A stretch of DNA of 64,000 bases from a candidate division NC10 bacterium CSP1-5. Lineage in GTDB: Bacteria; Methylomirabilota; Methylomirabilia; Methylomirabilales; CSP1-5. Positions 3,525 through 11,900 of the stretch are shown here, one piece after another. Both the position numbers and the translations under genes were made by a program. The notes below the pieces were generated by a model. The model did no database searches. It was not told the DNA's origin and saw nothing but the letters and a program-made list of their open reading frames with translations. The DNA lies in contig LDXR01000014.1 of the NCBI GenBank assembly GCA_001443495.1, forward strand, positions 1-64,000, written 5' to 3'. The first letter of the stretch is position 1; every line of letters starts with the position of its first letter.

Positions 3525-4661
3525 ATGATCCGATTGCAGTCCGGCGACCGGGGCCATAGATCGGTATCGAGACTGCTCCAGGCCGTCCTTGAAGAGTACG
3601 AGGTAGCCCTGGGGAGCCCCATTCACGCCTATGCCCCGGCAAGCCACCTCTCCCCTCCGCGGCGGGGCGGCGGCCTGCATCTGCACATCTTCGCCCTGCC
3701 AGTCCGACCGCACTGGTTCAGCCTCTGGCCCATCATCCCCAGCGTCGAGATCCCCGCGGTCTTTTCCTGGGGGCTGAGGCCGGGAACGGAGCGAGCCCTG
3801 GCCCCGGGGAAGCTCTTTGCCCAGGGGGTCCTGAAATACGATCACAGCGGTCACGCCATCGCCGGGATTCTTGGGGAGAACATCTATCTCCTCTTTGATC
3901 TCCAAGGCCAACCCGAAGAGCTGGTGCCGCTCCTCCTGCGGAAGGCCTTCGACCTGTGCCTCGGGGGAATGTCGGGGGTGCTTTCCCTCGAGACCGGAAG
4001 CCTCCCCCATCAGGTCCAGATCATCCTCCACCGCTTGAGTCACCCCACGGCCCTGCTCACCCTGGACCAGCTGAACGCGCGCGGAGACCGTCCGGGAAAC
4101 GGGGATCCAGAGGCCCGGGTCGAGGACGAGGATGTGATCCAGAAGTGGATAGCGGTGAAGGAGGAGAAGCTCAAGGAGCTCTCCCGGCAAATGGGGTCTC
4201 AGACCCGTCTCCTGAACAGCTGCCGGGAGCGGCTCCGCATGCTCAGCTCGCTCAAGGAGGCAGAGCAATCGGAGGACGTGCTGGGGCGCGACATCGACGC
4301 GTTGCTCAACATCCCCGCAGTGCGAGGCGTCGAGGTCCTGAGGGACCGCCTGTGCGTCCTTACGGATACGATCGACACGGTCGTCGCCGGGAAGCGGTAC
4401 CGCCTGGGACGCTTCCGCCTTGACATCCGCTTCAATGGCGATGTGGCCATCAGGAACCTGACCCGGGCATACGGCTACTATGACCACCCTCACGTGTGGA
4501 ATGCCAAGCCGTGCCTCGGGAATATCGGCCCGAGCGTCCTGAAAATGGTCAGCGAGTTTCAATGGGTGGCCGCGGCCGAACTGCTCCTTGAGTACGTGAA
4601 GACGGTAACCCCGAAAGAGTGGTATACCCCCATCGAGCACTGGGAGGAACTCAAGGCGTGA
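3525..4661 (+). CDS. E2-like (RWD/UBC-fold) protein of a bacterial ubiquitin-like system
   Basis: A 378-residue protein in three parts: an N-terminal domain (about 1-175) of unknown family; a charged, probably coiled-coil segment (about 198-250, VKEEKLKELSRQMG); and a C-terminal domain (about 285-378). The last part reads like a UBC/E2 core: strands RYRLGRFRLDIRF and GDVAIRN, then HPHV (321-324), WNAKP, C330, LGN, and a helical tail ending VTPKEWY. In E2 enzymes an HPN motif precedes the catalytic Cys, which is followed by L; HPHV...CLGN is the form I associate with prokaryotic E2-like proteins encoded beside JAB peptidases. C330 is the proposed thioester residue. The stop overlaps the JAMM gene start (GTGA), so the two are translationally coupled. 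The E2 assignment is by motif and context only. Confidence 0.6.
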   Translation: MIRLQSGDRGHRSVSRLLQAVLEEYEVALGSPIHAYAPASHLSPPRRGGGLHLHIFALPVRPHWFSLWPIIPSVEIPAVFSWGLRPGTERALAPGKLFAQGVLKYDHSGHAIAGILGENIYLLFDLQGQPEELVPLLLRKAFDLCLGGMSGVLSLETGSLPHQVQIILHRLSHPTALLTLDQLNARGDRPGNGDPEARVEDEDVIQKWIAVKEEKLKELSRQMGSQTRLLNSCRERLRMLSSLKEAEQSEDVLGRDIDALLNIPAVRGVEVLRDRLCVLTDTIDTVVAGKRYRLGRFRLDIRFNGDVAIRNLTRAYGYYDHPHVWNAKPCLGNIGPSVLKMVSEFQWVAAAELLLEYVKTVTPKEWYTPIEHWEELKA

Positions 4662-5293
4662 ACCGGCCTGACGCCCCCCCTCCCCAGGTCCTCATTGCGC
4701 CGCTCGCCTTCCAAAAGCTGCGCCTGTACATCGAGCTCTGCCCCATGGAGATTGGCGGGCTCGGCGCGGTGGAGCGCTCCGGCCCGAACTTTGTGATCAC
4801 CGACCTCTTCATCCTCTCCCAGAAGGTCTCTCCCGCAGAAACGGAATTGGACCCGGCAGCCGTATTCGAAATGCTGCAGGGCTGCGTCGCCGAAGGGCGG
4901 GACCCCGCGTCCCTCTGCTTATGGTGGCACAGCCACGCCGAGATGGACGTGGAGTGGAGTGAGACGGACGAGCGGACCATCGAGAACTTCCCCGGCGACT
5001 TCATGCTCTCCCTGATCGGCAATAAAGCGGGGGCGCTTACCTGTCGCCTCGACACCCTGCGCCCCACGCGGCAGGTCCTGACCGACCTTCCCGTCACGAT
5101 CATTCCCGACCGGGGGGAGGAAGGCGACGAGGCAGCGCTGCGGGCGTCCATCGTTGCCGAGATGTGCGAGAAGCTCCAGGTGATTACCCGCGACCTCGAG
5201 CTGTACGACAGCCCGGTCGACTTGGAATTTCTGTCTCGCTTCCACCCCGAGCTCTACCCCCCAGGGTCCCTGGAGTCACCCACCGCACCCTGA
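4658..5293 (+). CDS. JAMM/JAB-domain metalloprotease (deubiquitinase-like)
   Basis: A 211-residue protein of the JAB1/MPN+ superfamily with a complete metal site: E31 (MEIGGLG) and H91-S-H93-x7-S101-x2-D104 (HSHAEMDVEWSETD). This is the canonical E...HxH-x7-S-x2-D signature of zinc isopeptidases that trim ubiquitin-like proteins or remove them from targets. The GTG start overlaps the E2-like gene's stop and has GGGAGG upstream; a longer frame would begin inside the neighbour. Coupling to an E2-like gene, with a ubiquitin-like gene about 2 kb downstream, points to processing or deconjugation within one system. JAMM chemistry is well supported by the motif; the substrate is inferred. Confidence 0.9.
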   Translation: MNRPDAPPPQVLIAPLAFQKLRLYIELCPMEIGGLGAVERSGPNFVITDLFILSQKVSPAETELDPAAVFEMLQGCVAEGRDPASLCLWWHSHAEMDVEWSETDERTIENFPGDFMLSLIGNKAGALTCRLDTLRPTRQVLTDLPVTIIPDRGEEGDEAALRASIVAEMCEKLQVITRDLELYDSPVDLEFLSRFHPELYPPGSLESPTAP

Positions 5294-5388
5294 CCCTCCA
5301 CCGGGCAGTTGGGGCCGTGACGGTCAGCGATCAGCTGTTGGCCACTGGGACAAGGCCCACAAGCCTCACGGATGTGCAGGAGTGGATG

Positions 5389-6117
5389 ATGCGATTCCTT
5401 CGAGTCACCGATCTCCAATCGGCGGACAACCACGCCGTGCCCGCCTACCTGTTCCTCCCCGAAGCCCCGCGCGGCGGCGCCGCCGTGGTCCACGGCTACG
5501 GGGGCTGCAAGGAACAGATGCTGGGCATCTCGGCCCGCCTCGCCGAGGAGGGATGGGCGACGCTCGCCCTCGACCTCCGGGGACACGGCGAGCACCCTGC
5601 CCCCCTGGATGAAGGCGTGCTGCAGGATCTCGAGGCGGCCCTCAATTGGCTGCGTCGCTACGAGAAGGTTGTTGCCGTTGGGCATAGCCTGGGCGGGCGG
5701 CTGGCACTCATCTCCAGCGCCGACCTGGTCGTGGCCATCTCTCCCGCCGTTGCCAGTCGGCCCTCCGAGGAGGGACGGCAGATGCTCCTCGCGTTCGGCT
5801 CTACCACGGTCCGGAGCCCGAGTCCGAGCACCATCCTGGAATTGCTCCGGAGGATGGACGAAGTGAAGCAGCCCGACCGGCCGGTCCTGTTCCTGCACGG
5901 GGAACGGGACATCCCGACCCTGATCGAAGGGATTCGTCGCGTGGCTCAGGACCTCCCCCACGCAACCATGGCCCCCGTCACCACCTTCCAGCATCCCGAA
6001 ACCGCACTCACGCCAACGATCATTCCCTATCTGCACCACTGGTTCAACCATCTCGATCTGAAATTCAACCCCGAGGTCTTCCAGCGGGCCATTGACTGGC
6101 TCAGGGAGAAGACCTGA
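5389..6117 (+). CDS. Alpha/beta hydrolase
   Basis: A 242-residue alpha/beta-hydrolase fold protein. It has the oxyanion region VVHGYGG, LALDLRGHGEHPAP, the nucleophile elbow GHSLGG (Ser nucleophile), and HGERDIPT, whose Asp fits the acid position; the final catalytic His is probably in TFQHPET. No signal peptide is seen, so a cytoplasmic esterase, thioesterase or peptidase is likely. The frame is open far upstream into the JAMM gene, but AGGAG 5 nt before this ATG favours MRFLRVTDLQ as start (an ATG three bases earlier is possible). It lies 95 nt after the JAMM gene on the same strand. Whether it belongs to the ubiquitin-like system is unknown. Confidence 0.8.
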   Translation: MRFLRVTDLQSADNHAVPAYLFLPEAPRGGAAVVHGYGGCKEQMLGISARLAEEGWATLALDLRGHGEHPAPLDEGVLQDLEAALNWLRRYEKVVAVGHSLGGRLALISSADLVVAISPAVASRPSEEGRQMLLAFGSTTVRSPSPSTILELLRRMDEVKQPDRPVLFLHGERDIPTLIEGIRRVAQDLPHATMAPVTTFQHPETALTPTIIPYLHHWFNHLDLKFNPEVFQRAIDWLREKT

Positions 6118-6262
6118 GGGTTAAGGGCTGAGTGCTGAGGACCCTTCGGCGGTGAGCCGTTCGACGGTGAGCTCACGATCGAACCGCTCAGGGCCGAACC
6201 GCTGAGCGCTGAGCCAAGTCGAGACCTCAAAGCTCAGTCCTCAGTCCTGAGACCTCAACTCT
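6118..6262. repeat. Heptamer-type inverted repeat region (CTGAG/CTCAG words)
   Basis: Repeated words GGGCTGAGTGCTGAGGA on the left and CTCAGTCCTCAGTCCTGAG on the right form an imperfect long-range inverted repeat with shorter GC-rich hairpins between (CGGTGAGC/GCTCACG). It is one of the roughly 7-bp-period spacer arrays found through the window. It follows the hydrolase stop codon and may also act as a transcript end. Confidence 0.55.
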
Positions 6263-6278
6263 GCGGCAACGGCGCGCC

Positions 6279-6307
6279 TTGACACCCCGATGACAGTGGC
6301 ATAAGCT
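6279..6307 (+). promoter_or_regulatory. Sigma70-type promoter for the first E2 family D-like gene
   Basis: A perfect -35 TTGACA (6279-6284), 17-bp spacer and TAAGCT (6302-6307) as -10. Transcription would start near 6314, only about 9 nt before the ATG at 6323 but 24 nt before the GTG at 6338. This gives the second half of the island its own transcription unit. Confidence 0.6.
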
Positions 6308-6322
6308 AACAGATCAACGAGA

Positions 6323-7129
6323 ATGATGAGGCGAGACGTGGAGCGGATCGAAATCCAGGGGAAGAAGGTGCTGCTCTACCGGGACGGGACCCCGCATACG
6401 CCTAATCGTGAGGTCCCGCTCGAGGATTTCCTTCGGGAGGTCACCGCCGCCGTCCGCCGGCCCGGCCGGGGACACCACCTTCTCCTCCCGCCCGGGGCCC
6501 GCATCGTCAAGCTCGAGGGCGTGGTGAACATCCTGTGCATCGAGACACCACCCCAGGTGCGGGTCATCCGGTGGAGCGCCGCCTCTATGGGAAAGGGGGC
6601 GGAGTACGAGACCTTCCGCCTTGCCTTCCCCTACATCGTCTCTATCTTCCTCTTCTTCCAGGGACGCTTTGAGGATATGCGCGTCTACTACCGGACCGCG
6701 CCGCTGGAGGGCCCGGATGATACATTGCTGATGTCGAATCTTTGGAATGTGCAGGCCGACCCTGAGAAGCCTTCGGCCTGTCGTGCCTGTCTCAGGGGGA
6801 GGCCCGAGGACCTGTGGGAGAGACCGCTCGTCCAGCAGGTGAGGATGCTGCTCGATTTCTTCTGGGGGACCGGCTTTAACACTGACATCGTCGGCAACTG
6901 CTTCGAGCGGGCCAGGACCCTCGATCCACGGATCGCCTCACCCAAGGCCTGGGAGGCGGCCTCAGAGGCCGACCCCCTCTTCCCTCTCCAGGTCCCGTGG
7001 GAGCGGCTGGATTTAACAATCGGGGAAGTCATAGACCATCTCGTGGAGTCCGGCCCCCAGCCTCGCCAGGCCATCGCCGACGCCTCCGATCTCGCCAATC
7101 TCATGTATCGTATCGCCGAGTCGAAGTGA
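6323..7129 (+). CDS. Prokaryotic E2 family D-like protein (PRTRC-B-like), paralogue 1
   Basis: A 268-residue protein paralogous to the gene after the ubiquitin-like gene. The central region reads RLAFPYIVSIFLFF, MRVYYRTAPLEGPDDTLL, NLWNV (139-143), and then C153-R-A-C156-LRG. This matches the layout I know for the prokaryotic E2 family D / PRTRC protein B: a hydrophobic strand, an N-x-x-N-V turn in place of HPN, and a downstream Cys followed by L, with the E2 His absent. A helical segment (170-186) and a conserved tail (DPRI...AW...ADPLFP; SDLANLMYRI) follow. C153 or C156 could carry a thioester. Start is ambiguous: GTG at 6338, with GAGG upstream, suits the promoter better than this ATG. Family placement is a motif-level inference. 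Confidence 0.5.
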   Translation: MMRRDVERIEIQGKKVLLYRDGTPHTPNREVPLEDFLREVTAAVRRPGRGHHLLLPPGARIVKLEGVVNILCIETPPQVRVIRWSAASMGKGAEYETFRLAFPYIVSIFLFFQGRFEDMRVYYRTAPLEGPDDTLLMSNLWNVQADPEKPSACRACLRGRPEDLWERPLVQQVRMLLDFFWGTGFNTDIVGNCFERARTLDPRIASPKAWEAASEADPLFPLQVPWERLDLTIGEVIDHLVESGPQPRQAIADASDLANLMYRIAESK

Positions 7130-7158
7130 CGTGAGCCGCTTCTCACGCCCCTTTGCTG

Positions 7159-7187
7159 TTGACATCCTCCCGGACCGTCAATAGAAT
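7159..7187 (+). promoter_or_regulatory. Strong sigma70-type promoter for the ubiquitin-like gene
   Basis: TTGACA (7159-7164), 17-bp spacer and TAGAAT (7182-7187), near consensus and among the best promoters in the window. It begins about 30 nt after the preceding stop codon, so the ubiquitin-like gene and its downstream E2-like partner can be expressed independently of the first paralogue. Confidence 0.75.
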
Positions 7188-7238
7188 TCAAACAGTGTTC
7201 CCGAACCCGCCACACCCCGATCGAGGGGACGAGGAACC

Positions 7239-7565
7239 TTGAGTAACGACCAACGGAAGCAGATCGGGGCGCCCGGTGGGCGCATCGCTGCACCACCCGC
7301 AGAGGTCGTCGGAACGGTGCGTGTCGTCTATGGCATTCACGCCCTATCCGTCGGCGTTGCCGGGAAGACGGTGGGCGACGTCCGGGTGGTCCTCGGTCAG
7401 GCCATGAACATCAGTCCGAGAGCGATAGCCCTCGTTGACGGGCAGGAGGTGAACGAGGGCCAAATTCTCCTGCCAGGCCAACATCTTGAATTCGTGCGCC
7501 AGGCTGGAGAGAAGGGCGATCGCCGCTGCAGTCTCCTCAGGACGATGGCACCATGGGCGATGTGA
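7239..7565 (+). CDS. Ubiquitin-like beta-grasp protein (Prok_Ub/ThiS-like)
   Basis: A 108-residue protein with a probable beta-grasp domain at about 24-93: strands VVGTVRVVYG and ALSVGVAGKT, helix VGDVRVVLGQAMN, then ISPRAIALVDGQEVNEG and LLPGQHLEFVRQAGEKG. The ending LEFV-R-x-A-G-E-K-G closely resembles ThiS/MoaD-like ubiquitin relatives such as PRTRC protein C. The translation does not stop there but adds DRRCSLLRTMAPWAM, so the precursor would need trimming after G93 to expose a C-terminal glycine, a plausible task for the JAMM enzyme. The start is TTG with GAGGA just upstream. The 3' end overlaps the next gene by 13 nt. Residues 1-22 are probably disordered. Confidence 0.7.
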   Translation: MSNDQRKQIGAPGGRIAAPPAEVVGTVRVVYGIHALSVGVAGKTVGDVRVVLGQAMNISPRAIALVDGQEVNEGQILLPGQHLEFVRQAGEKGDRRCSLLRTMAPWAM

Positions 7566-8377
7566 TCGAGATCGTCGGGGATACAGCGTACGCCATGGGA
7601 GGGGACGGGGCCGGGCGGCGAACCGTAGAGCGGCAGGTCGGTCTACGGGAGCTGCTGGGAGGCATCGCCTCGTCCATGGAGACGTCCCAGAGGGACACGA
7701 CCCTCTTCCTCCCGGCCGGGACCCGGTACGTGAAAGTCCGCGGGGCCTCCACGGGACTCGTGGTAGAGCTGCCCCCCGAGATTCGGCGCATGACCTGGAG
7801 CCCGGCCACGATGGACCAGGGCGGAGCATACAGCACCCACTGGCTCGCCTTCCCCTATACCATTCACATCTGTATCTTGTATACCATCGAGGGGGACGAG
7901 GCGTACGGCGGAGGGCTGGAAGAGATGCGCGTCTATTACCGGAACGCGCCGCTCCAGTCTCCTGATGACCCGCTCTATGTCCCCAATCTTTTCAATGTCC
8001 AGGTCGACCCCGTCCTGACCTCGAACTGCCGCGCATGTCTCCGCGGGCATCCCGAGGATCTGGAGAACCTTCCCCTGGCGAAACAGATGGAGACCCTCCT
8101 CAATTTTTTCTGGGAGACCGGCTTTAACCTTGACATTGAGCGGAACGGCTTCGAGCGGGCCAAGATCCTCGATCCACGGATTGTCTCTCTGCAGGCATGG
8201 GAGTCGGCCTCAAAGGCCGATCCCCTCTTCCCCCTTGGAATCCGATGGGAACCAGCCGGCTGCACCCCCAGGCAGGTGCTGGATCGGCTGATCGACGTAC
8301 GGCGCCCCGATGTCAAACCGTTGCGGAGCGCCTCCGATCTCGCCGACCTGATGTACCGGCTGACGGAGGCCTCCTAA
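7553..8377 (+). CDS. Prokaryotic E2 family D-like protein (PRTRC-B-like), paralogue 2
   Basis: A 274-residue paralogue of the protein encoded before the ubiquitin-like gene. Shared blocks include MRVYYRNAPLQSPDDPL, NLFNV (145-149), C159-R-A-C162-LRG, a following helix (LAKQMETLLNFFWETGFN), FERA..LDPRI and SDLADLMYRLTEAS. Conservation of both Cys and the N-[LF]-x-N-V turn in both copies supports an active-site role for the CRACL segment. The start lies inside the 3' end of the ubiquitin-like gene, so the pair is coupled. The N-terminal third (1-75) is the least conserved part and may be a specificity region. As with paralogue 1, the E2 relationship rests on motif layout and context. Confidence 0.5.
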   Translation: MGDVIEIVGDTAYAMGGDGAGRRTVERQVGLRELLGGIASSMETSQRDTTLFLPAGTRYVKVRGASTGLVVELPPEIRRMTWSPATMDQGGAYSTHWLAFPYTIHICILYTIEGDEAYGGGLEEMRVYYRNAPLQSPDDPLYVPNLFNVQVDPVLTSNCRACLRGHPEDLENLPLAKQMETLLNFFWETGFNLDIERNGFERAKILDPRIVSLQAWESASKADPLFPLGIRWEPAGCTPRQVLDRLIDVRRPDVKPLRSASDLADLMYRLTEAS

Positions 8378-8509: not shown

Positions 8510-8842
8510 ATGATCGACAGGGAGACCATAGAGAAGCGGTATGGTGAACTCGGGACCAGGGATTTCCAACTGAGCATCAATGGGAGGTCCTATGACCTCT
8601 ACGAGATCCTCCGGATCCTCGGCCAGGGGTTTGAGGACATCCGGCCCATTGACGTCTGTTCCGCCACCGAGAACCTGTACGCCATCCGGTACTGTGATCT
8701 TGAAGACCGGCACATCGTGACCATCGAGTTCGATCAGGAATTCCGATTGGTCACAGAGCACCGGACCCACTTGGCGGAATGGATGGGAGAGGACGAATAC
8801 CAGGCGTTTGGGTGGGGGGCCTGGTGTCCCTGGACCATCTAA
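8510..8842 (+). CDS. Unrecognised 110-residue acidic protein
   Basis: A small acidic protein with a good RBS (AAAGGAG about 10 nt upstream of ATG). It begins MIDRETIEKRYGELG, has a strand-rich middle (DFQLSINGRSYDLYEILRIL; LYAIRYCDLEDRHIVTIEFD) and ends with aromatic residues (FGWGAWCPWTI). I do not recognise the family. It might be a small mixed alpha/beta adaptor. It lies in the plus-strand island after the ubiquitin-like and E2-like genes and before a second unrecognised small gene, so it is a candidate accessory component or substrate. The two Cys residues are too far apart for an obvious metal site. Confidence 0.6.
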   Translation: MIDRETIEKRYGELGTRDFQLSINGRSYDLYEILRILGQGFEDIRPIDVCSATENLYAIRYCDLEDRHIVTIEFDQEFRLVTEHRTHLAEWMGEDEYQAFGWGAWCPWTI

Positions 8843-8910: not shown

Positions 8911-9270
8911 ATGGGTTGGCGCTTTCGGCTCGCGAAGAAGAAGGGGGGAGACCGGGGTCTCCTCATGGAAGGCCGAGCATCTCCCGAGGGGAGCCGGGAG
9001 GAGGTGGAATTCTTCCTCTTCATCGGATCTGATTATGGGACGGCCGACGTCCATTCGCTACGCAAGGAGTCCTTTGCACTCATCGACTACTTCGCAGGGT
9101 TCCTGGGACCGCCGGCGAGCGGACCCCAACCGATCAATATTGGAGAACTGATGGACAGCGAGGACGAGATTCCGGTGAACGCCTTTTGGCGCATCCGAGA
9201 AGATCACCGCGCAGAGATCGTTGCGGGGCTGCTCAAGGCGCTGGAGGATCAGGAGAAGAGGGATGGATAA
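8911..9270 (+). CDS. Unrecognised 119-residue protein
   Basis: The frame is open further upstream, but the ATG used here has AGGA at suitable spacing and begins a basic stretch (MGWRFRLAKKKGG). The rest is acidic with a hydrophobic core (EVEFFLFIGSDYGTADVHSL; ALIDYFAGFLG; EIPVNAFWRI) and a helical end (AEIVAGLLKALEDQEK). No family is recognised. Its stop overlaps the next gene's start by 8 nt (ATGGATAA), which indicates coupled translation with the helical-repeat gene. Confidence 0.6.
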   Translation: MGWRFRLAKKKGGDRGLLMEGRASPEGSREEVEFFLFIGSDYGTADVHSLRKESFALIDYFAGFLGPPASGPQPINIGELMDSEDEIPVNAFWRIREDHRAEIVAGLLKALEDQEKRDG

Positions 9271-10180
9271 GGGGCCCCGGGTCGAACAGATGCGGCGATA
9301 CATCCACTCCAGGGAAAAAGAGCTCCTCTCCACGATCACAGAGATGACCGAAGACCAACTCCGATGGACCGTCCGCGTGTTCGCCGACTGCCTGGACGAG
9401 ACCAGCCGGACCCTCTGCCTGGAAGGGTACAGCGAATACCACCCCTTCGAGAGGATCCAAGCCTTCGTCGCCTCCTTCATCCCCCAGTACACCCAACTGG
9501 CCCTCGCGGACCTCGACGTCAAGACCCAGGTCGAAGGCTCGGGCCTCAGCGCCCTGACGGAAGAGGAGCTTCAGAACATGTCCTGCGCCGAGAAGTGGTA
9601 CCTGCTGGCCTCGGACGAAGAGGCCCTCACCCCGGCGCAGCTCCGGCGGGAGATGGCCCGGCTCCTGTTCTGCCGGAGCTATGACCTGTACTGCGATCTC
9701 ACCCTTTCCATGGCGGCCATCGAGTTTCCCAGCTACTTTGAAATCCAAGAGTCGTTAGCCAGGCTGTCCCCCGAGGATCTCCGCGCCCTCAGAAACAGGC
9801 TCCTGCCCAAGACCCAGGAGGTGGACAAGGCTCCACCCGAGGCCGCAGACGAGATCTTGCTGGGCATCCGCGAGGAGATCGCCCGCGCCATTTCCCTCGA
9901 CAGACCCCTGGACAGTCTCTTTGAAGGCGCGATGGGGCGGATTCCCCGGGGAGGAGACCAGGTCGCGGAAGCGACAGCGGCCCCGGATACTCCAGTGATG
10001 TCCCGGGAGGAGCTCCAGTTATCCGTCAAGGCCCTGACCGACCTCATGACGGTCGACGAGATGCGCCGTGAGCTTTCCCCCCTCAAAGATCGGTACGCCT
10101 CCTTCTATGACATCCCAGAGGCGGACCTCCATGACCCGTCAGGCGCCTCGATGAGAAGATCGGCGGCCGGACCGTCCTGA
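9263..10180 (+). CDS. Helical-repeat protein, N-terminal part of a gene split by an apparent frameshift
   Basis: A 305-residue, almost entirely helical acidic protein of unknown family. The ATG follows AGGAGAAGAGG and overlaps the preceding stop. A unit of about 140 residues (LTEEELQ...LLASDEEALTPAQLRREMARL...REEIARAISLDRPL) is clearly repeated in the next frame (LLTEDDDGMDASQMARHISRV...RKGIARALSLPEPL). After about residue 290 this frame degenerates to SGASMRRSAAGPS and stops. The -1 frame, open from 10135, instead reads VRRLDEKIGGRTVLSFTDRY and continues without interruption into the second repeat. One protein of about 450 residues is therefore likely, interrupted by an indel or sequencing error between 10135 and 10178, or by recoding. 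Confidence 0.65.
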   Translation: MDKGPRVEQMRRYIHSREKELLSTITEMTEDQLRWTVRVFADCLDETSRTLCLEGYSEYHPFERIQAFVASFIPQYTQLALADLDVKTQVEGSGLSALTEEELQNMSCAEKWYLLASDEEALTPAQLRREMARLLFCRSYDLYCDLTLSMAAIEFPSYFEIQESLARLSPEDLRALRNRLLPKTQEVDKAPPEAADEILLGIREEIARAISLDRPLDSLFEGAMGRIPRGGDQVAEATAAPDTPVMSREELQLSVKALTDLMTVDEMRRELSPLKDRYASFYDIPEADLHDPSGASMRRSAAGPS

Positions 10181-10212
10181 GCTTCACAGACCGGTACCGG
10201 TCGGGCAGTCTG

Positions 10213-10623
10213 GTGACGCGGCAACGCATCTCATCAGAGGTCTGGGCCCTTCTGCCTCATGAGGAGCGAGTCCGTCTCCTCACGGAAGACGACGACGGCA
10301 TGGACGCGAGTCAGATGGCTCGACACATCAGCCGGGTCTTCATGAGCTATCTCTACCAGATGCTCCACGATCCGACCGCACAGATGTCCTTCCTGAAGGA
10401 GCCATTCTACCAGGTCCTGCAGGACACGATCATCACACAGCTCGGCAAGGGGGGGGATAAGGCGGGGCTGCGGGAATTGAACCGCAGAGTGACCCGTGGC
10501 ATGCTCGAGGTCGAGCAGCGGCCCCCGGAAGAGCGGCAGGCCATGCTGCTGGAAGTCCGGAAAGGCATCGCAAGGGCCCTCAGCCTGCCGGAGCCCCTGC
10601 TCGACCCTGAGGCGCACTCCTAA
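10213..10623 (+). CDS. Helical-repeat protein, C-terminal part of the split gene
   Basis: 136 residues if translated from the GTG shown; the frame is open back to 10135, giving a natural-looking extension (DEKIGGRTVLSFTDRYRSG) without ATG or RBS. The content matches the second half of the upstream protein: LLPHEERVRLLTEDDDG, ASQMARHISRVFMSYL and EVRKGIARALSLPEPLL align with the first repeat unit. Lack of a credible start, plus the open upstream reading, makes this the displaced 3' half of one gene rather than an independent one. The product is acidic and helical, with no catalytic motif visible. Confidence 0.6.
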   Translation: MTRQRISSEVWALLPHEERVRLLTEDDDGMDASQMARHISRVFMSYLYQMLHDPTAQMSFLKEPFYQVLQDTIITQLGKGGDKAGLRELNRRVTRGMLEVEQRPPEERQAMLLEVRKGIARALSLPEPLLDPEAHS

Positions 10624-10644: not shown

Positions 10645-10854
10645 ATGGGCTGGCAATATCAGGAGCGGATGGTGATGTTCAAGGAAACGGCCGAAGGGTT
10701 GGTCAGCGGATTGGATTGGCTCAATGACGTGGGTCGGGAGGGGTGGGAGATGGTTTCTGCGGTCCCCCTGATTGCGCCCAACAAGGATGGCTTCGCCTAT
10801 GGAACGGTGGGGGCTCTCATGATCTTCAAGAGGCCGCAGGCCGAGGGGAGGTAA
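10645..10854 (+). CDS. Small DUF4177-like protein
   Basis: A 69-residue protein with a strong RBS (GGAGG 7 nt before ATG). The pattern MGWQYQERMVMF...LDWLNDVGREGWEMVSAVPL...ALMIFKRP matches the small DUF4177-type fold: a first strand W-x-Y, the L-N-x-x-G-x-E-G-W-E-x-V helix-strand turn, and a last strand ending in F-K-R. These proteins have no established biochemical role. It sits between the split helical-repeat gene and the TPR gene. Confidence 0.7.
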   Translation: MGWQYQERMVMFKETAEGLVSGLDWLNDVGREGWEMVSAVPLIAPNKDGFAYGTVGALMIFKRPQAEGR

Positions 10855-10862
10855 GCCAAGGG

Positions 10863-11900
10863 ATGAGTCAGGACGATCGGCAGGGGACCCCGGGGCAGGG
10901 ACAGGTGAGCCTTCCCGCACTCATGGCAGAACTGGATAGATGTAAAGCGGGGGGGGATGCTCCAGGGACCGGCTGGGCCTTGGCCAAGATCGGGACCGTC
11001 TACCAGACGCAGGGAAAGCATCGGGAGGCCCTCGCGGTCTTTCAGGAAAGCCTCAAGGTCTTTGAGGAACTGGCGGACAAGCCGGGGGAGGCCTCTGTCG
11101 CTGCGTTGATGGGTCATCTTTCGTTTCAGCAAGGCGCGTGGGATCAGGGGTTGGAGTCCCTGGACCGCGCCCGGCGTCTGCAGCAGGAGCTTGACGATCG
11201 GCCCGGGCTCGCCGCCACCCTCGGAAAGATGGGGAACGCCTATGAGGGGAAGGGGGAATGGGAGGAGGCGCTGCAGCACTACCGCGAGAGTATGCGGATC
11301 AAAGAGGAGCTCGGCGACAGGGTGGGCCTCGGCCTGACCTGGAACAATATCGGCACGCTCCGGGCGAAGATGGAGAGATGGGAGGAGGCCCTCGAGGCGT
11401 ACGGGCAGGGTCGGCTCATCCAGGAAGGGACCGGAGATACTCGCGGGCTTTCGATCACCCTGGCCAACATCGGCCGCGTGCATCATCACAGGGGGGAGTG
11501 GCAGAAGGCCGCCGAATGCTACGAAAAGAGCTATGCCCTCCACGAGGCGTTGGGGGATGCCCTGGGGTGTGCAGGGATTCTCAACAGCCTTGGTCTTGCC
11601 CGCAAGGAGATGAGGGATCTCGACGGAGCAGAGGAGACGTACCAACGGGGGATCCAGATCCTGCGGGAACGGGATGACCTCCTCCGCGTCACGGTTCTCA
11701 TGCATAATCTTGCGATCGTCCACGAGGAGAAGGGAGAGTATCGGAAGGCGCTCAGCCTCCTGGAAGAGGTCATCTCGCTCGACAAGCGGATGGGCAATCC
11801 CGATCTGAAACGCGACATGCTCACCTTCCGCCGCATCCGCCGGCGGATGTCCATGGAGCGGGACGTGCAGGTGGAACGGAGGGAGCTCGGAGAAGGATGA
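10863..11900 (+). CDS. Tetratricopeptide-repeat protein (seven 40-residue TPRs)
   Basis: A 345-residue soluble protein. After a short Gly/Gln-rich N-terminus it consists of seven consecutive 40-residue TPR units of the long (TPR_12/Rap-like) spacing. Examples are ALAKIGTVYQTQGKHREAL, TLGKMGNAYEGKGEWEEAL, TLANIGRVHHHRGEWQKAA and LMHNLAIVHEEKGEYRKAL. It ends in a basic-acidic helix. Such solenoids bind peptides or partner proteins, so a scaffold or recognition role in the island is reasonable but unproven. The frame extends upstream across the previous gene; ATG with AAGGG/GGGGAGG upstream and MSQDDRQG is the likely start. Its stop overlaps the next small frame (ATGA). Confidence 0.85.
   Translation: MSQDDRQGTPGQGQVSLPALMAELDRCKAGGDAPGTGWALAKIGTVYQTQGKHREALAVFQESLKVFEELADKPGEASVAALMGHLSFQQGAWDQGLESLDRARRLQQELDDRPGLAATLGKMGNAYEGKGEWEEALQHYRESMRIKEELGDRVGLGLTWNNIGTLRAKMERWEEALEAYGQGRLIQEGTGDTRGLSITLANIGRVHHHRGEWQKAAECYEKSYALHEALGDALGCAGILNSLGLARKEMRDLDGAEETYQRGIQILRERDDLLRVTVLMHNLAIVHEEKGEYRKALSLLEEVISLDKRMGNPDLKRDMLTFRRIRRRMSMERDVQVERRELGEG

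Follow-up and report, generated by a model that had tools for sequence, protein, structure and literature searches.

The window analysed here is a 64,000-nt stretch, positions 1 to 64,000 of contig LDXR01000014.1 (contig C14 of the source genome, G000), from a 2.77-Mb metagenome-assembled genome (MAG) of candidate division NC10 that is 99.7% complete. In the labels used below, G stands for genomes of the order, L for loci, C for contigs of G000 and f for families. At 3525-8377 the window carries six open reading frames (ORFs), A to F, all on the plus strand. They encode an E2-like protein, a JAMM metallopeptidase, an alpha/beta hydrolase and a ubiquitin-like protein (Ubl) flanked by two further E2-like paralogues. 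The first-pass annotation had read this cluster as a ubiquitin-like system without an E1. Translations and alignments verified the six ORFs at the positions given there and, but for the end of E, their motifs, and the proposal that the JAMM, Ubl and E2-like proteins belong to a machinery for ubiquitin-like conjugation is supported. The claim that the system has no E1 does not hold, as ThiF genes lie in Ubl loci on two other contigs of the same genome. We think it probable that the locus is a satellite of a dispersed Ubl network resembling PRTRC (ParB-related, ThiF-related cassette) systems, with two pathways whose E1s, encoded elsewhere in the genome, would act in trans. The evidence for this reading comes from gene content, motifs, orthology to E1-containing operons, loss of an E2-like gene from the locus on contig C10, co-occurrence and purifying selection.

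The motif HPHV...C330-LGN attributed to A is present in its translation: YDHPHV and C330-LGN are both there, YDHPH and CLG are invariant in 23/23 aligned members, and the protein thus carries the HPx...C active-site motif of the E2/UBC superfamily. B, when read from GTG 4658, has the complete set of JAMM residues that had been assigned to it (E31, H91-S-H93, S101 and D104), all invariant in nine of nine aligned members and spaced as in the JAMM/MPN+ pattern E...HxH-x7-S-x2-D. It scores below threshold against Prok-JAB (E=0.004), and a PDB sequence search returned an N11-like JAMM (E=0.005). C starts at ATG 5386 and is clearly an alpha/beta hydrolase. D and F are 48% identical, as expected of paralogues, and their second Cys (C156 in D) is invariant in 25/25 homologues. 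E was described as ending in GEKG. Its ORF in fact continues for 15 codons beyond that point (DRRCSLLRTMAPWAM), overlapping the start of F, while family conservation ends at AGEKG, with 0-23 further residues in relatives; the 15-residue tail of E itself is unconserved. Since conservation stops there and the tails after it vary, GEKG is plausibly the mature end of the protein. One member of the E family matches ThiS at 0.0026.

Purifying selection acts on each of the six genes, with pairwise dN/dS values against G008 of 0.09-0.30. Blocks homologous to the window occur in other NC10 MAGs, one relative locus sharing 93-99% protein identity, which together with the low dN/dS indicates that the cluster is more than a chance assembly. 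The four-base A/B overlap (GTGA) and the 13-base E/F overlap suggest translational coupling. C and D remain adjacent in L012, L013, L040, L044, L047, L048 and L056, and the stretch between them in the window (6118-6322) is built of short near-repeats (GAACCGCT/GAGCCGTT, CTGAG).

Table 1. Genes of the cluster and of the region downstream of it.
ORF	Product and features	Position	Strand	Pfam
A	E2-like protein, 378 aa; coiled coil, C-terminal YDHPHV-x6-CLGN	3525..4661	+	
B	JAMM metallopeptidase, 211 aa; start overlaps A stop	4658..5293	+	
C	Alpha/beta hydrolase, 243 aa; stays beside D in relatives	5386..6117	+	PF12697, E=1e-13
D	E2-like/PRTRC_B-like protein 1, 268 aa; NLWNV...CRACLRG	6323..7129	+	
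E	Ubiquitin-like protein of at most 108 aa; uncertain start (TTG 7239 or further in)	7239..7565	+	
F	E2-like/PRTRC_B-like protein 2, 274 aa; start overlaps E end	7553..8377	+	
G	110-aa protein; remains beside D in relatives	8510..8842	+	no match over cut-off
I+J	Single 453-aa frame in relatives, two frames in window; break near 10140	9266..10623	+	
K, L	DUF4177-like protein of 69 aa (K) and TPR protein (L); retained downstream of D in relatives	10645..11900	+	
M	Small Polbeta-type nucleotidyltransferase	12018		

A whole-genome search of G000 for ThiF gave three matches over the cut-off, on C10, C13 and C22. None of these genes is on the window contig, and the window has no ThiF, AAA+ or second JAMM gene of the C10 or C22 types. 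The earlier remark that no E1 is visible is therefore right for the window and wrong for the genome: on C22, ThiF lies beside an A-paralogue and a Ubl ending in GG, and on C10 beside an E-paralogue, a JAMM and an AAA+ gene. Because two ThiF genes of G000 sit in Ubl loci, the system appears to be scattered rather than E1-less. The C13 ThiF (MoeB/rhodanese type) adjoins a JAMM and a cysteine-synthase-like gene, judged from ORF sequences, in what reads as a canonical sulfur locus. The other JAMM genes of G000 were set aside, two being RadC-like, one unlinked and one in the sulfur locus. A stand-alone JAMM-like protein of 176 aa is encoded on C21 (L148 4817-5347), with no Ubl partner nearby.

The C22 locus (system I, or pathway I below) has the order A-paralogue–ThiF–Ubl, its A-paralogue being 33% identical to A and its Ubl a 77-aa protein ending in KIRGG. 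A-JAMM-ThiF-Ubl forms a single operon in G016, G015 and G019, although in G019 the called JAMM is short and without the motif. As relatives hold these four genes in one operon, window A and B are the split-off E2-like/JAMM half of system I. Other arrangements are an A-JAMM pair without ThiF or Ubl in family f2, and, in the window's genus, A-JAMM at the window locus with A'-ThiF-Ubl elsewhere. Homologues in relatives do co-occur with the JAMM gene; a lack of such co-occurrence had been named in the first-pass annotation as grounds for refutation. In system I, nearly all ThiF members keep the PCTA cysteine (as PCTA or SCTA), and the Ubls have a fixed [RK]GG followed by 0-6 residues. In G017 a window-type JAMM B stands alone beside a major facilitator superfamily gene (L047 9184-9819), some kilobases from C-D, with A-ThiF-Ubl elsewhere.

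The C10 locus (system II, or pathway II) reads Cdc48-like AAA+–JAMM–ThiF–Ubl, and its Ubl shares 55% identity with E. In G028, G022, G009, G013 and G010 the operon is complete as AAA-E2like-JAMM-ThiF-Ubl, the E2-like gene being a homologue of D and F. Products of a C10-type locus, L041, match PRTRC models below their cut-offs: ThiF matches PRTRC_ThiF (TIGR03736) at 4.5e-19 with 68.7 bits (49.7 bits for the C10 ThiF itself; cut-off 144.75), and JAMM matches PRTRC_A (TIGR03735, a JAMM with N-terminal domain) over nearly the full model at 1.2e-9 with 38 bits (cut-off 101.8). The best NCBIfam match of the L041 AAA+ is CDC48 (3.5e-26, below the family cut-off). Window JAMM B gave no match to PRTRC_A. 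The C10-type operon (L060 7511-11142 in G000; also L054, L057 and L058) has a fixed setting near polyhydroxyalkanoate-type and chaperone genes; judged from ORF sequences only, its neighbours resemble thiolase, PhaC-like, phasin-like, DnaK, Hsp20 and DnaJ.

In G000 (L060) only about 60 bp separate the AAA+ stop from the JAMM start, and the E2-like gene is missing between them. It is also missing in a separate MAG, G012 (L105), and in four f3 genomes; an assembly artefact was set aside, since the second MAG shows the same deletion. Five of the six genomes without the operon gene have a D-type gene elsewhere, the exception being G015. In a tree of 25 E2-like proteins the AAA-operon and window types are distinct (support 98/97), and D and F fall into separate clades of the latter. 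The tree therefore speaks against a recent tandem duplication of D as the origin of F, although a single D+F clade is not rejected (p-AU 0.12). F and the Ubl occur at the window locus only in G000, G008 and G012. The AAA-operon copy is lost from G000 and G012; G009 and G013 retain it and have a window locus that carries D alone. This pattern is suggestive of D/E/F having replaced the lost operon copy, as one event among close relatives, and is no proof of it.

Of the order's 35 genomes, 15 have E2-like together with ThiF genes and 17 have neither, with ThiF alone in one and the E2-like gene alone in two. The Ubl is found in 17 genomes, nearly the same set (it adds G002 and G008 and misses G004). 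No C10-type ThiF was found in G008, which is 68% complete. A scan of a contig collection for relatives returned three loci, all NC10, and tblastn searches of plasmids with A and the E2-like protein returned none.

We then ranked profiles blindly against 34 local families. PRTRC_C placed the E family first, and PRTRC_B placed D/F first with a score of 30.7, followed by A with 20.9. A classical E2 profile, built from human UBE2N and from yeast Ubc4 and human UBC9 (the latter two checked against PDB chains), ranked PRTRC_B first and A second, the A family being first of the 34 local families; the alignment with A covers the motif only (HPNI..G-ICL against HPHV..-PCL). On mixed evidence, A is likely to be an E2 enzyme, and for D and F the balance tips slightly toward the same role. 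What stands of the earlier assignment is that their homologues hold the E2 position of the PRTRC-like operon, and what does not stand is membership of Prok-E2 family D. PF14460 (Prok-E2_D) matched none of the 25 D/F-family members, and none of these 25 sequences showed an invariant His downstream of C156.

Several observations weigh against the satellite reading. None of the 35 genomes gave a match to PF14460 at E<=10, the control set also being without a match over the cut-off, and a genome search with PF14461 found nothing, its control likewise matching nowhere. PRTRC_B and PRTRC_C scores are weak in absolute terms. Foldseek searches of fair-confidence AlphaFold2 (AF2) models of A and D (mean predicted local distance difference test, pLDDT, 77.5 and 82.5) against PDB returned no match at E<=0.001 and no UBC fold among the listed matches. 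The co-occurrence counts take no account of relatedness among the 35 genomes; G015 has E1, Ubl and JAMM genes with no E2-like gene detected; and G008, G011 and G018 are incomplete MAGs. Other searches were uninformative: Pfam, NCBIfam, PADLOC and PHROGs scans of A, D, E and F gave no informative family, and profiles of A, D and E found coiled-coil or chance matches only in the PDB sequence search. The D model had four matches at E<=0.001 among viral-structure models, all phage proteins without names, and tblastn of D in phages found nothing. The absence of a UBC match for D, of a PF14460 match and of a downstream His, together with the neighbouring cysteines of the CxxC, would fit D, F and their relatives being adaptors or scaffold partners of PRTRC-like Ubl machinery rather than E2s, with a structural or redox-active invariant Cys. 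We consider this unlikely, if the most serious of the alternatives, because their operon position is that of PRTRC_B, called E2-like in type 6d systems, and because PRTRC_B picks D/F first, the classical E2 profile picks PRTRC_B first and the Cys is invariant throughout.

Sulfur transfer offers another account, in which the Ubls would be ThiS/MoaD-like sulfur carriers and conjugate to no protein. Ubl_A matches ThiS just under the cut-off (3e-4), and the ThiF-type E1s are short; yet no thiamine, molybdenum cofactor or cysteine-synthase gene was noticed in these loci, the MoeB-type/JAMM/cysteine synthase-like locus on C13 is separate, and E2-like partners and variable tails favour conjugation, so that we regard this account as improbable. 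That the genes are functionless leftovers of decay or of a chance assembly seems very improbable: the adjacent I/J frame is broken in the window and the Ubl and F stand at this locus in three genomes only, but the dN/dS values are low, catalytic residues are intact and synteny is kept across families. (In L011 and L012, I and J are continuous; the frame change in the window is either a true mutation or a sequencing error.) Least credible of all is a genuinely E1-independent system, with self-sufficient window genes and E attached without adenylation by ThiF. It draws on the lack of a ThiF gene on the window contig, whereas in G000 and relatives ThiF shares operons with close paralogues of E, A and B, and ThiF and Ubl co-occur across the order.

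If the locus is indeed a satellite of a dispersed network, D, F and A would carry thioester-linked Ubl, the ThiF E1s would act in trans, and the AAA+ ATPase would act on tagged proteins. In pathway II, E or its C10 paralogue would be cut back to ...AGEKG and adenylated by the C10 ThiF, then handed to D or F for attachment to targets; JAMM peptidases would process precursors or take the tag off, and unfolding or extraction of tagged proteins would fall to the Cdc48-like AAA+ ATPase. In pathway I, the C22 ThiF would pass the second Ubl (...KIRGG) to A, and JAMM B would trim that Ubl or reverse the tagging. More tentatively, the whole may be a chromosomal two-modifier network in which KIRGG and AGEKG Ubls each have their own ThiF and JAMM, the second also a dedicated Cdc48-like AAA+ unfoldase, and in which E2-like genes have been relocated to a shared window satellite serving both in trans, paralleling ubiquitin and p97/Cdc48. 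This fuller version is possible, though we would not favour it over the odds of its being wrong.

Bub-type systems have separate Ubl, E2, E1 and JAMM proteins, as in system I. For system I the closest known counterpart is this Bil/Bub-like four-part layout, and for system II it is PRTRC/type 6d. BilABCD, an ISG15-like system (PMC11354881), also encodes the four components separately, and the A-JAMM-ThiF-Ubl operon shares its layout. Judged by its description, it differs from system I, where the E1 is a short ThiF of about 220 aa, the Ubl consists of a single small domain, and the E2-like protein combines HPH-x6-CLGN with a coiled coil; BilB instead carries a CEHH motif. Bil and Bub have their E1 in the same operon; the window has none, and operons of relatives include one. 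The plasmid order B(E2-like)-A(JAMM)-ThiF of PRTRC/type 6d matches AAA-E2like-JAMM-ThiF-Ubl, the C10-type ThiF and JAMM match PRTRC models below cut-off as given above, and the NC10 Ubl end AGEKG resembles AAGTKG of PRTRC_C. In contrast, the NC10 C10-type loci have a Cdc48-like AAA+ where PRTRC has ParB/E/F (from gene lists), the E2-like genes of G000 occupy another locus, and the PRTRC loci compared are on plasmids while the NC10 loci lie in MAG contigs with housekeeping genes. Further, the E2-like protein of type 6d operons was defined with an absolutely conserved His downstream of the Cys (Iyer et al. 2006, PMC1779556), which NC10 D and F lack. The C22 ThiF scores 7e-15 against PADLOC E1-E2 models, a likeness to Cap2/Cap3 of cyclic-oligonucleotide-based antiphage signalling systems (CBASS). 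Those have an E1-E2 fusion and a JAMM, whereas in NC10 E1 and E2-like proteins come from genes of their own and are accompanied by a Ubl gene; beside the NC10 E1 loci we noticed no CD-NTase.

AAA+ chaperones are tied to Ubl conjugation in FtsH-ternary MoxR-vWA systems with a Ubl module (Kaur et al. 2020, PMC7159879). In f3/f6 relatives of the window locus a ChlI-type AAA+ gene lies beside the D-type gene (L040 6379-8536, L046 3183-5319, L048 1-794), joined in L040 and L046 by a vWA gene, an arrangement that recalls these systems. Unlike them, the NC10 loci had no caspase, EAD1 or RING genes that we noticed, and the window itself has neither ChlI nor vWA genes. A literature search covering few subscription journals turned up nothing on Ubl conjugation in Methylomirabilis.

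Most described bacterial Ubl systems are compact operons, often plasmid-borne or in defence islands. Here two Ubl pathways would belong to free-living bacteria, whose genomes can keep E1 and E2-like genes at different loci. Ubl loci that seem to be E1-less may only appear so when a single contig is read. One pathway lies near genes of storage-polymer metabolism and chaperones and has a dedicated AAA+ ATPase. This pairing of a Ubl with an AAA+ ATPase is the most interesting part of the finding, as it raises the question of whether Ubl tagging and Cdc48-type unfolding were paired in bacteria independently of eukaryotes.

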